DNA of 64,000 nucleotides, taken from positions 1 through 64,000 of the IMG/VR virus record IMGVR_UViG_3300008120_000016, one strand, 5' to 3'. A program made the position numbers and the translations under genes. The stretch's first letter is position 1. Every line of letters starts with the position of its first letter. The notes beneath the pieces are model-generated. The model was given only the letters and a program-made list of their open reading frames with translations, was not told where the DNA came from and ran no database searches. Of this stretch, positions 1,593 to 23,816 are shown piece after piece. The DNA comes from a virus.

Positions 1593-4343
1593 TTATTTCT
1601 TCTTTTCTTTAGGTTTTGGTGCATCAAACTTATTTTTATTTTCACGGGCTATTTGAAGTTGTTTATCAGCTATTTCTTTTTGTGCCTGAAGCTTTTCCCT
1701 TTCAAGATTATTTTTTTCTTGATTTTGTATATTTTTATTTATTTCTTGCTCTCTTTTATAATTCATTGTGTCTGTATAATTTTCTTGCTTTTGAATTTTT
1801 TCTAAAGCATCTTGATAATCAGACTGTTGATTTTGATTAATATCTTGCATAGCTCCATACCCAGCTGCTCTAATTTCTGCAATAGTAACTTGAGCTTGTC
1901 TATCTTTAGCAGCTTCATCAGCTTTAAATTTCTGAGATTCTTGAAGTTGTTTTTCTTGTGCTGCGATTTGTTCTTGCTGAAGTTTTTGCTGATGTTCTTG
2001 TTCTTGTTGTTTAGCTTGTTGTACTTTTTCTTCAGCTTTCTTAAGAACACCTGTAAGTTCAGCTATTGACTCAGATTTAATAATACTTCCTAAATCATAA
2101 ATTGAGGCACCTGTAGCATTGTTATTTAGAGCTAGTTGTTTTAATTGCTCCATCATTGCACGAGAATTAGTTTTTGTAGTACAGAAAATATTAAGATCTC
2201 TCATTAACAAGTTAGTTCCTTCCATTTGGAAGTTAATTTTTTCATCTCCACCTGTAATATATTGAAGACGAATACTTGGTTTTTTAGAATGATAGTATTG
2301 AGCAAGATCAGTTCTCATCTGATGTACACGAGGCATCAAGTTGTCACTATGCTGTATAAAGTATTGTTCTGTTTGAGCATAGCTAGCATTCATAGCTTGT
2401 TCAACTCCTGTAGCAGTTTGTTGCTGAGCTATTTGCTGACCCATACGTTGTGGGTTTAAACCAATTACTTCAAATGCTTGATTTTTAAAATATGTACCAA
2501 GTTGAATCCTTGACATCAAACGTTGAGTTTGTTCAAGATTTAACACTTGATAGTGCTGGAAATTAAGAGCATTTTCTGTATTTGTAATAGATGTATCAAG
2601 TGGTAGCATTTGAAAGTTCTTCATTGCTACATATGCTTTTGATAGATTGTTCTTACCCCAGTCTTCACCCAATGAGTGACGAGGAAGAGCATTCTGGTCA
2701 AGCATAATCACTGTACCTAATTCATCTACAAGAATATCTGCTATTTGGTTGTTTACAATGTTATAACCTATCTGATAAGGCTTCATTAAGTCTACAAGAC
2801 TTACAGATCGCGTATTGCGATCAGAGAACACAGCCCCTTCTACAGGAAGTTTACAACCATAAAGAGTTGCATCACCTTTAAACTGGAAAGGAACTCTACC
2901 TGGTCTACCACCATTAAGTCCAAGATAAATAGGATTAATACCTCCTGGATTATTCATACCCCAAAATGCAGGTCTGTTAGGACCAATTTTAACTCCACCC
3001 CATACTTCATTAATCCATATCCAATCTATATGCTCACCAAAAATTAAGTTGTCTTTTGTTTTTTGTTTAAACAATTCCTGATTATAAAGTGGTTTTTCAC
3101 TCACTTTATATTCTTCAGATACTATTTCTTGTATTAAATCACCTTCTGATGTGATTTTTGTAAGGTGTCCCACTTTTCTTTGACTTTTCCAATAGATAGT
3201 TGAAACCCTAAGCATATAACTTTTACCGAAGTCTTGCATGTCCTCTGAGTCAGATAATATCCATTGGACAATGTCTCCAAATTGACTCCCGGCATCATAT
3301 AAGGAAGTGAACTGTCTATAAGCCAGTGAAGGCATTTGTGTGTTCCATTCATGTGTTCTTTTCGGATCATAATAACTACCGTCGTTTTGCATTCCTTGAA
3401 TAGCATACCCAGCTGATCTTGCTGGATAAATTGCTTCTAAAGCTTCCAATTGTTCATCAGTCATCATCCAACCGTACTTATCTACAACGTCAGAAATTGA
3501 CATCATATCTAGTTTACCTACCCAATTTCCTTGGGATATATAACGAACATCTGGAGATTTATGATAAAAAGTAAGAAGAGGATTCCAAAGTTCCATTTCA
3601 TAATCATCCTCCATCATATTAAAATGCCAAAACTCTCTATCTGTAATCAGCATATCACGAAAAGCACGTTCTTCAAGTTCTTGCATTTTAAATCTTTCTT
3701 CATCAACTTTCATTTGATGATCAGCCCATTCTTCAATCATCGATCTATAATCCTTTTTAAAAAAATCTTCTATTTCAGGAAGAGTTTTTAATTTTTCAGG
3801 ATTTAATTCTTGACCAGCTTCTTCTGAAGCAGGGTCAATACCCATTTCCATTAACTTATGAACTTGCTTTTGTTGAGCTTGTTGTAAAAGAACTTGTTCA
3901 ATCATTGCTCTTTTTTCTTCTAACATCTCATTATATGACATGTCATCAACTGCTCTAAACATTATTCTAGATGTTCTTTTAGAAAATTCATTACAAAGAA
4001 CATTAATAACATTAGGTATAATAGGATAAAACTTAAGCTCAAATGCTGATACATCCTCTTTAGTGAGAGTGTCAATCAAATCAGCCATTTCATTATCTTC
4101 TTCCACTATATAATCTTGCTTATCTATAATACCTTTAGCAAGTTTGTAGTTTTTCATTAGACGTCTTGCATTACGTCTAAGTTGTTTCATACCTTGAAAT
4201 TCTAACCAGTCAAGGTTCCAAGCTCTCCACTGATCATCTTTTTCTTTTTCTGTTACAAATTGAAAAGGCTGAATAAGAGTACCCATCTTATTGTACTCTA
4301 CTTTAGCACCCTTTTTTAACTGTAAGGCATTATATATTTGCAT
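1593..4343 (-). CDS. Portal protein
   Basis: A 916-residue protein just downstream of TerL in the packaging block. Its N-terminal two thirds has the mixed alpha/beta, W/Y-rich composition of crAss-like portals. Residues from about 770 onward form a long Q/K/E-rich coiled coil ending in a lysine-rich tail. The portal forms the dodecameric DNA channel at one capsid vertex and docks the terminase. The start lies five bases after the stop of a 34-residue ORF, as expected in a compact operon. The assignment rests on position, size and overall sequence character. Confidence 0.8.
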   Translation of the reverse strand: MQIYNALQLKKGAKVEYNKMGTLIQPFQFVTEKEKDDQWRAWNLDWLEFQGMKQLRRNARRLMKNYKLAKGIIDKQDYIVEEDNEMADLIDTLTKEDVSAFELKFYPIIPNVINVLCNEFSKRTSRIMFRAVDDMSYNEMLEEKRAMIEQVLLQQAQQKQVHKLMEMGIDPASEEAGQELNPEKLKTLPEIEDFFKKDYRSMIEEWADHQMKVDEERFKMQELEERAFRDMLITDREFWHFNMMEDDYEMELWNPLLTFYHKSPDVRYISQGNWVGKLDMMSISDVVDKYGWMMTDEQLEALEAIYPARSAGYAIQGMQNDGSYYDPKRTHEWNTQMPSLAYRQFTSLYDAGSQFGDIVQWILSDSEDMQDFGKSYMLRVSTIYWKSQRKVGHLTKITSEGDLIQEIVSEEYKVSEKPLYNQELFKQKTKDNLIFGEHIDWIWINEVWGGVKIGPNRPAFWGMNNPGGINPIYLGLNGGRPGRVPFQFKGDATLYGCKLPVEGAVFSDRNTRSVSLVDLMKPYQIGYNIVNNQIADILVDELGTVIMLDQNALPRHSLGEDWGKNNLSKAYVAMKNFQMLPLDTSITNTENALNFQHYQVLNLEQTQRLMSRIQLGTYFKNQAFEVIGLNPQRMGQQIAQQQTATGVEQAMNASYAQTEQYFIQHSDNLMPRVHQMRTDLAQYYHSKKPSIRLQYITGGDEKINFQMEGTNLLMRDLNIFCTTKTNSRAMMEQLKQLALNNNATGASIYDLGSIIKSESIAELTGVLKKAEEKVQQAKQQEQEHQQKLQQEQIAAQEKQLQESQKFKADEAAKDRQAQVTIAEIRAAGYGAMQDINQNQQSDYQDALEKIQKQENYTDTMNYKREQEINKNIQNQEKNNLEREKLQAQKEIADKQLQIARENKNKFDAPKPKEKKK

Positions 4344-16327: not shown

Positions 16328-17375
16328 CCTTTATATATCAAATTTAACAAACTACAAATCGGATTAAATAGCTATAAATTTGCCAATCTTGCTTCTCTCT
16401 GTTCAGAAGGGTTTAATAGACGTATTAACCGTTGTAAATGACAGATATTCCGGTAAGTTCCCGGACGTAATAGGAAACAGTTGTTCCTATGTAGGCTGAT
16501 ATATCTGAATATATATCCGTTAAGTGATCTGTCCTATGATCTGGTCACCTTTTAAGTAAGGCGGTAGGGTAAACAGTCAAAACACTTAACGATAAGTATA
16601 CAGTTCAAACCTTCAGAGTTGTAAAATACTCACGGTGTATACGATAAGGGACTATGTCCTGAACTAATTGAACCGGCTGCTTATAGTCGTTAGGATAAAG
16701 TGGGTAACCACTATAAAGTGTGCAATGTTTAAACAAGCATTGTATGCACAGGGTTAAACCTGGCCGAGTAAGCATACGAGCAACACATTCAACGGAGATG
16801 TCTCTGAGAATGTACAGTCTTAGCATAGGCTGTTGAGTGAGAAATCACAATAGGAAAACTCGTAGTGATATGTGAAATGATTCCACCAAGAGTCAAATCA
16901 CGTTGATCAGATAGATGTTGCAGGGGTCTGGTAACAGGGTCCTCATCTATCCGTAGACTGGTAATCTACACTGGGATGTCGTGTACGTTTTGCTCAAAAG
17001 GCAGAAAGCACATTCTGACAACACATCCTGGATTATGCTATTGTTTAATTAATAACTAAATTAATTAAAGCAAAAGTTTGTCAGGTGTTTGTGTGAAACC
17101 ATCTTATCTGTATGAAATATGACAGCACAATGAGTACCGCAAGGAAAATTGTGAAATCTAGAGAGTATATCTAAGGAGCTGCAGGGATGTAGCTTGGAAC
17201 TATCCCGTTCACTTGGTAGAAATCAAAGTTTATGTAGCACAAACAAAGATCCTTCTGGAGAGAAGTCAAACACTGATGGTCCCATTTACAGGTTAGTAAT
17301 AACTTGTGTGTGTATGCAATGGTAACGTTGCTAAAATAATGGGAGGAAAGGTCAACACTCAGCCTTTTATTTACT
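16328..17375 (+). ncRNA. Large ornate structured RNA candidate
   Basis: About 1 kb without a credible gene, less AT-rich than its surroundings and dense in inverted repeats. Hairpins seen: 16410-16430, 16470-16490, a 9-bp long-range helix CGTTAAGTG/CACTTAACG (16518-16526 with 16583-16591), 16699-16712, 16723-16742, 16837-16848, 16910-16951, 16953-16969, 16974-17028, 17044-17069, 17184-17206, 17252-17265 and 17316-17331. Three have GUAA loops and one GAAA. A CCTTTATATATC element near 16328 could be the promoter. The style recalls the GOLLD and ROOL classes, often found in phages near tRNA genes. Strand and ends are inferred. Confidence 0.65.
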
Positions 17376-17404: not shown

Positions 17405-17725
17405 ATGAAACAATTTTTCAATTTTAAAACGAAAAAAGAAGAAAATCCGTTAGAGAAAATTACAAGGTTTTTTATAAACCCTTATATGCCTCAAAACTAC
17501 AAGCTTCTTAAGCTTAAAGACAAGTATAAAGAAATACTTGCTCATGAAACACAGATAGTTACAGAAGATGGGTATATTCCGTGTGTTTCTTTTCCTATTG
17601 AGTATCTTGTAAATGATACAGCATTTATTGAATGGAGGTCAGATTATCAATTCATCATTAACAGTTCAATCTACTGTAAAATAGTATCAGATGACACTAT
17701 TCGTATTGATACAGTGAAATTCTAA
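17405..17725 (+). CDS. Hypothetical protein
   Basis: 106 residues: a basic N-terminus (FNFKTKKEENPLEK), then an aromatic-rich alpha/beta region. It is the first gene after the structured noncoding region and may be read from the same transcript. No family recognised. Confidence 0.65.
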   Translation: MKQFFNFKTKKEENPLEKITRFFINPYMPQNYKLLKLKDKYKEILAHETQIVTEDGYIPCVSFPIEYLVNDTAFIEWRSDYQFIINSSIYCKIVSDDTIRIDTVKF

Positions 17726-20687: not shown

Positions 20688-20762
20688 AGTCAAGTAGCTC
20701 AGTTTGGTCAGAGCATCCGTCTGATACGCGGAGGGTCATAGGTTCAAATCCTGTCTTGACTA
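20688..20762 (+). tRNA. tRNA-Ile (GAT)
   Basis: Plus-strand cloverleaf: acceptor AGTCAAG/CTTGACT, a D arm with GGT, anticodon loop CTGATAC giving GAT, and a T arm with TTCAAAT. CCA is not encoded. It is followed after 6 bp by the tmRNA, so both are probably cut from one precursor. Confidence 0.95.
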
Positions 20763-20768
20763 CAAACT

Positions 20769-21176
20769 GGGGGTGCCCGGTATTGACAGCAAATGGAAGG
20801 TAAGCACACACGCAGAGGTAAGGGTCTATTCCTCTATAATCAATGATTCAAATTTTAAGCGACAACACAACTGTTGAACTTTCTGACTACACTTTCGAAT
20901 CTCTGCTTGCAGAACTCGAAACTTCTGAGCTTGAATTAGCTTAAGTTAGGCGAGGAGCTATCCTGGGAACAGAAAATAGCACATAGTTTTCCTGATTTTG
21001 TCCTTGTGACATAAAACTTAATAGAAAATCAGGTGGTGGAGCTGTTCTAGCTGGTTTGCTAGTTCCTCATACGGTGCAAAATGTTTGGGATCTTTCCAGC
21101 ATTTAGTACTAAGCGTGTGATACGTTGTGTTTATTGTTTCTTTGTTTGGACAGGGGTTCGACTCCCCTCACCTCCA
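20769..21176 (+). ncRNA. ssrA: tmRNA
   Basis: The 5' end GGGGGTGCCCGGTATTGACAGC-like start (20769 on) pairs as an acceptor with CACCTCC (21169-21175). The T arm is AGGGG-TTCGACT-CCCCT. Between lie a tag-like frame and pseudoknot-type inverted repeats such as CTGATTTT/AAAATCAG. The tag frame consistent with a terminal TAA begins about 20861 (S-D-N-T-T-V-E-L) and ends E-L-E-L-A, about 28 residues, longer than the roughly 10-residue host tag. tmRNA rescues stalled ribosomes with SmpB. The resume codon is inferred. Confidence 0.9.
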
Positions 21177-21202
21177 CTGGTGTTTTCCGTCAAGCTAAGA
21201 AT

Positions 21203-23770: not shown

Positions 23771-23816
23771 TTATAGCTCTATAATCCGTTAATATAGATA
23801 AACTGTAAAAGTTTAT

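Follow-up and report, generated by a model that had tools for sequence, protein, structure and literature searches.

The locus

The window analysed here, a 64,000-nt stretch taken from a virus record of 124,719 bp, carries between positions 16328 and 17375 a region that a preliminary description, made from the sequence alone, had singled out as a highly structured noncoding RNA candidate of about 1 kb. The features on which that proposal was built are borne out. The region lacks a plausible open reading frame (ORF), the sole ORF of at least 60 aa inside it encoding 73 aa on the minus strand, and its GC content of 0.36-0.41 exceeds the roughly 0.30-0.33 found nearby. Its plus strand folds far beyond dinucleotide shuffles (z -8.2; minus strand, z -3.0). 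The 9-bp long-range helix is present, such a helix in fact occurring twice (Table 1), GUAA loops cap three stems (16700-16711, 17287-17308 and 17316-17331) and a GAAA loop caps one (16837-16848).

Table 1. Features of the GOLLD locus in the window and Pistol ribozymes in related contigs (positions in the latter are those of the contig named)
Feature	Position	Strand	Evidence or remark
Promoter-like motif CGGATTAAATAGCTATAA, immediately 5' of the RNA	16360..16377	+	Recurrence in relatives
GOLLD-family RNA, estimated transcript and ends	16378..17372	+	Fold; Rfam and homolog evidence
5' domain, proposed equivalent of the GOLLD cap domain	16400..16970	+	nhmmer/blastn and alignments
9-bp long-range helix, CGTTAAGTG / CACTTAACG	16518-16526 / 16583-16591	+	
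3' domain, full-length GOLLD match	16971..17365	+	RF02032; covariation
Variable linker rich in A/T, matching the one enclosed in the solved cage	17032..17066	+	Rfam alignment
J13/15 dinucleotide GC, predicted kiss with L20 of the neighbouring chain	17070..17071	+	GC:GC to AC:GU in L219/L231
9-bp long-range helix, P17 by name mapping	17086-17094 / 17237-17245	+	Double changes in 7/9 pairs
L20 dinucleotide GC, predicted partner of 17070-17071	17139..17140	+	GC:GC to AC:GU in L219/L231
P21 three-way junction	17171..17216	+	Isolated fold and loop survey
P21a, 8 bp, loop GGGA	17184-17187 (loop)	+	
P21b, 4 bp, loop UAUCCC	17201-17206 (loop)	+	
P27 hairpin AAAGG-UCAACACUCAG-CCUUU with U-rich tail, likely 3' end	17347..17372	+	3' motif common to 15 viral contigs
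tRNA-Ile and tmRNA, genomic context	20688..21179	+	Rfam, ARAGORN
Pistol ribozyme, L216	3451-3512		Above Rfam cut-off; starts 5-6 nt after GOLLD
Pistol ribozyme, L225	2050-2111		Above Rfam cut-off; starts 5-6 nt after GOLLD
Pistol ribozyme, L215	4605-4666		Above Rfam cut-off; starts about 170-280 nt after GOLLD
Pistol ribozyme, L221	1979-2040		Above Rfam cut-off; starts about 170-280 nt after GOLLD
Pistol ribozyme, L228	603-664		Above Rfam cut-off; starts about 170-280 nt after GOLLD

A divergent GOLLD RNA

The region had been likened to giant RNAs of the GOLLD and ROOL style, and an Rfam search had been proposed as the check. That search identifies it as GOLLD (RF02032), matched over positions 1-416 of the 416-position model at 83.3 bits (E 1.2e-21), with homologs reaching 133.7 bits; ROOL gave no match to the region at E up to 10. 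The gathering cut-off of RF02032 is 150 bits, a curation threshold rather than a structural feature, and because the window copy scores below it, default annotation misses this RNA: a default-threshold Rfam scan of the window lists tRNAs and the tmRNA only. The same holds across the clade, whose GOLLDs score 79.8-133.7 bits under an E-value threshold, none of the members tested rising above the gathering cut-off. Many of these members nevertheless match RF02032 end to end at E 1e-19 to 1e-35, values that put homology to GOLLD beyond doubt despite the low scores.

Motif searches agree with this assignment. An ordered three-part GOLLD motif occurs once in the window, with zero occurrences expected by chance, and members with end-to-end matches carry AAAGCAAAAG, CGCAAG and CUCAGCC in that order. 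The three-part pattern is found in at least 120 viral-contig stretches; since some of these are chance matches in coding DNA, our statements on loops rest only on members confirmed by Rfam or profile. A search with the consensus pattern AAAGGTGTAATCTCAGCC gave no matches, and blastn of the window GOLLD and those of two relatives against INPHARED phages gave no significant match. The evidence supports assigning about 16378-17372 on the plus strand to a large structured noncoding RNA of the known class GOLLD, from a divergent branch.

Host phage and distribution

The terminase large subunit (TerL) of the window is 25-27% identical over 85-93% to that of crAss-like cr* phages, Bacteroides and Flavobacterium phages; its terminase falls in phrog_6681 and its portal in phrog_6547. 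On these TerL and portal relationships, the host phage appears to be crAss-like (Crassvirales). The expectation that the RNA would be phage-borne and near tRNA or tmRNA genes thus holds, the tRNA-Ile and tmRNA lying 3.3-3.8 kb downstream. The tmRNA itself (20769-21179) encodes an unusual tag, DNTTVELSDYTFESLLAELETSELELA, and a tmRNA is found at a similar distance from GOLLD in the relative L233 (9958-10424).

Close TerL relatives of the window are metagenomic contigs. Among the 15 viral contigs that carry an exact copy of the 18-base 3' motif AAAGGTCAACACTCAGCC, TerL is 62-73% identical to that of the window in eight and 28-29% identical, with in-frame TAG, in three, and two more show partial matches of 25-29%. 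Four contigs with TerL in the 62-73% range (G043, G044, G047 and G055) share the arrangement of the window, GOLLD and TerL being on opposite strands with 8-12 kb between them, and gene-by-gene comparison places the GOLLDs of L233 and L219 inside the same genome interval. Close TerL relatives L082-L089 retain this interval with no GOLLD detected there, so the RNA is not essential to the phage group. At the equivalent position, the noncoding gap of L089 folds near chance (z -1.7); that of L088 reaches z -4.2, yet no GOLLD was detected in it.

Outside recognized phage contigs, a GOLLD match of 104 bits lies at 543-963 of L229, an 8-kb contig binned as Campylobacterales; it is a real GOLLD, probably on misbinned phage DNA. 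A candidate on a Formosa chromosome (L230) was rejected, being an 18-base match only, without profile support.

Domain plan and covariation

Published GOLLDs have a 3' domain that is conserved, a 5' domain that is less so and a linker that varies (PMC12286853), and the window shares this plan (Table 1). The 5' domain, the putative equivalent of the GOLLD cap, is conserved with L217, L219, L231-L237 and others. Near 16450, the element CCGG-UAAGUUC-CCGG and the hairpin that follows it have their counterparts in CCAG-UAAG-CUGG elements of L217, L232, L216 and L223. No tRNA was found in the linker by ARAGORN.

Both domains carry compensatory changes. In the 5' domain, 43 of 72 predicted consensus pairs (16655-16975) show double changes. 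When seven sequences of the 3' domain are aligned, 94.3% of alignment cells are paired, a percentage that favours the window because the structure was drawn on its sequence. More weight lies with the double changes, which affect 33 of 81 pairs, where shuffles average 20.1 and none of 500 reaches as many. When the structure is slid along the alignment, at most 10 pairs show double changes. Homologs devoid of compensatory changes had been named in advance as grounds for rejecting the RNA; the opposite was found in both domains.

Predicted contacts between chains

In the env-38 GOLLD, L20 kisses J13/15 of another chain (bridge B7), and L21a and L21b each kiss themselves across half-shells (B8 and B9) (PMC12286853). 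Here stem and loop names are mapped from the Rfam layout and the text of that paper rather than from solved-structure coordinates, and the mapping is accordingly an inference. With these names, the dinucleotides within L20 (CGCAA) and J13/15 (AAGCA) are GC:GC in the window and AC:GU in L219 and L231, a change that is probably one event in one lineage. We equate this two-base contact, one of those with compensatory changes, with the published kiss between chains.

The P21 loops are a different matter. In confirmed GOLLDs they typically read GGCA, CGCAA, UGCA, GGCC or AGCU, each with a self-complementary core. The window loops GGGA and UAUCCC lack the self-complementarity of B8 and B9 and are complementary to each other. 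The combination of GGGA in one P21 loop and UCC in the other is shared by the window, L218-L220, L231/L234, L233/L235 and L237, and it appears separately in L125 and L191, two unrelated 177-kb contigs confirmed as GOLLD by Rfam at 80-84 bits. Such a coordinated switch suggests pairing of L21a with L21b, either between chains or within one, and thereby rewired contacts at the P21 loops of the window subclade. A less favoured alternative to this pairing is a tetraloop-receptor contact, given that GGGA conforms to the GNRA consensus of tetraloops. Self-complementary L21 loops are a variable contact, on which membership of the GOLLD family does not rest.

How these loops would act in assembly is a matter on which we can be only tentative. 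It is conceivable, though our confidence is less than even, that the subclade rewired the seam of the cage, replacing two homotypic kissing loops with one heterotypic GGGA/UCC pair that forms either a new half-shell contact or an open half-cage, and that a ribozyme trims the GOLLD 3' end in related crAss-like phages. Purine riboswitches provide a precedent for contact inside a single chain: adjacent hairpin loops of their three-way junction kiss in this way. L21a (GGGA) and L21b (UCC) are likewise adjacent hairpins of a three-way junction, and were they to kiss within one chain, the RNA would still be a GOLLD relative, with half-shells left unjoined and an open 7-mer bowl or other assembly in place of the closed 14-mer. 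The loss of self-complementarity in loops that serve as self-kissing bridges between half-shells in env-38 (PMC12286853) would fit such an outcome. We nonetheless consider it unlikely, as the same loops could instead pair between chains, and the half-shells are also bridged by an A-minor contact, B10, which might keep them joined.

Proposed transcript boundaries and flanking elements

The 18-mer CGGATTAAATAGCTATAA directly upstream of the RNA is found exactly in several crAss-like relatives and in degenerate form in dozens, its copies frequently preceding ORFs in the same interval of the genome. With at most one mismatch, CGGATNANANAGCTATAA occurs three times in the window and in none of 100 shuffles; a second window site of this 18-base motif is at 23771-23788 on the minus strand. 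We infer that the copy at 16360-16377 is a candidate phage promoter of this crAss-like group. In a sigma-70 promoter scan, matches were no commoner than in shuffles, and the same was true of a generic terminator scan, which did not call the P27 hairpin. The RNA likely ends near 17372, at this AAAGG...CCUUU hairpin and the U-rich tail that follows, and P27 may serve as terminator.

In relatives, the 3' flank of GOLLD often holds further elements: Pistol ribozymes lie downstream in several contigs (Table 1), and in L219 a tRNA starts 8 nt past GOLLD. These arrangements suggest ways of defining a precise RNA 3' end. Neither a Pistol ribozyme nor a tRNA was seen just 3' of GOLLD in the window, where an ORF (17405-17725) begins about 33 nt past the RNA on the same strand. 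Given this proximity, the region could act in cis as the leader of that ORF, being a 5' UTR or an RNA switch instead of a free RNA, a reading that we regard as very improbable: the downstream neighbour differs among relatives, the conserved block closes with a hairpin and U-rich tail, and a tRNA or Pistol ribozyme 5-8 nt 3' in relatives would sever the RNA from downstream genes. Less credible still is convergence, in which the region would belong to a novel class of giant RNA that looks like GOLLD without being related to it, an idea to which the sub-cut-off score of every clade member tested might lend itself and which is effectively refuted by the end-to-end RF02032 matches and the ordered GOLLD-specific motifs.

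Proposed role and comparison with known systems

GOLLD is, to our knowledge, among very few natural RNAs that build cages without protein. We consider it highly probable that this phage gene encodes a GOLLD-family RNA about 1 kb long, which would build a homo-oligomeric cage, most likely as a compartment of lytic growth. The RNA would probably be transcribed from its own phage promoter (the 18-base motif), its 5' domain folding as the cap and its 3' domain as the ring, by analogy with the solved GOLLD 14-mer. Neighbouring chains would join sideways through the L20-J13/15 kiss, which the window appears to retain, and half-shells would meet through P21 loops that seem to have switched in the subclade from self-complementary to mutually complementary. 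The resulting compartment would most likely enclose the linker, and perhaps also tRNA, tmRNA or other cargo related to translation. By the same analogy, cage assembly is likely: GOLLD forms 14-mers down to nanomolar RNA and rises at phage lysis (PMC12286853). GOLLD is reported, in work that PMC7567579 cites, to be dispensable for phage production by one Lactobacillus prophage.

The closest known system is the env-38 14-mer nanocage (Kretsch et al. 2025, PMC12286853), which shares with the window the full-length 3' domain, variable linker, large 5' domain, L20-J13/15 pairing, P21a/P21b arm and final conserved hairpin, as well as its phage-borne position near tRNA/tmRNA. The window copy differs in scoring below the Rfam cut-off, in residing in a crAss-like phage, in having no tRNA in the linker and in its GGGA/UCC L21 loops, which are not self-complementary. 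ROOL is likewise a large phage-borne RNA and forms cages in a published structure, whereas the sequence and motifs of the window are those of GOLLD. The noncoding RNA of about 800 nt in phage ICP1 (PMC7567579) is also large, borne by a lytic phage and abundant in infection; it is not classed as GOLLD in that paper, and the likeness drawn here is one of description.

A literature search, with subscription papers and preprints outside its scope, returned no paper reporting GOLLD in crAss-like phages. The presence of GOLLD in these phages, the P21 loop switch and the Pistol ribozymes or tRNAs 3' of relatives' GOLLDs look new. With a branch in crAss-like phages that is conserved and covaries, the phage range of GOLLD is broadened, and an entire branch is seen to be hidden by the Rfam cut-off. 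Its natural variants can serve to test the part that individual kissing loops play in keeping the cage intact. The GGGA/UCC switch gives a direct, checkable prediction for assembly.

Other elements in related genomes

Several further elements were observed in relatives. In L088, a close TerL relative, a Hatchet ribozyme (2925-3062, 79.8 bits) sits in a gap of 1.1 kb that is poor in ORFs, at the interval occupied by GOLLD in the window. An inverted repeat of about 105 nt occupies a noncoding gap of L086 (3065-3170) and is kept in several relatives that lack GOLLD. Upstream of GOLLD in L128, a TAG-recoded crAss-like phage, positions 2074-2132 give a match resembling the type III hammerhead ribozyme, at 43 bits and below the cut-off.
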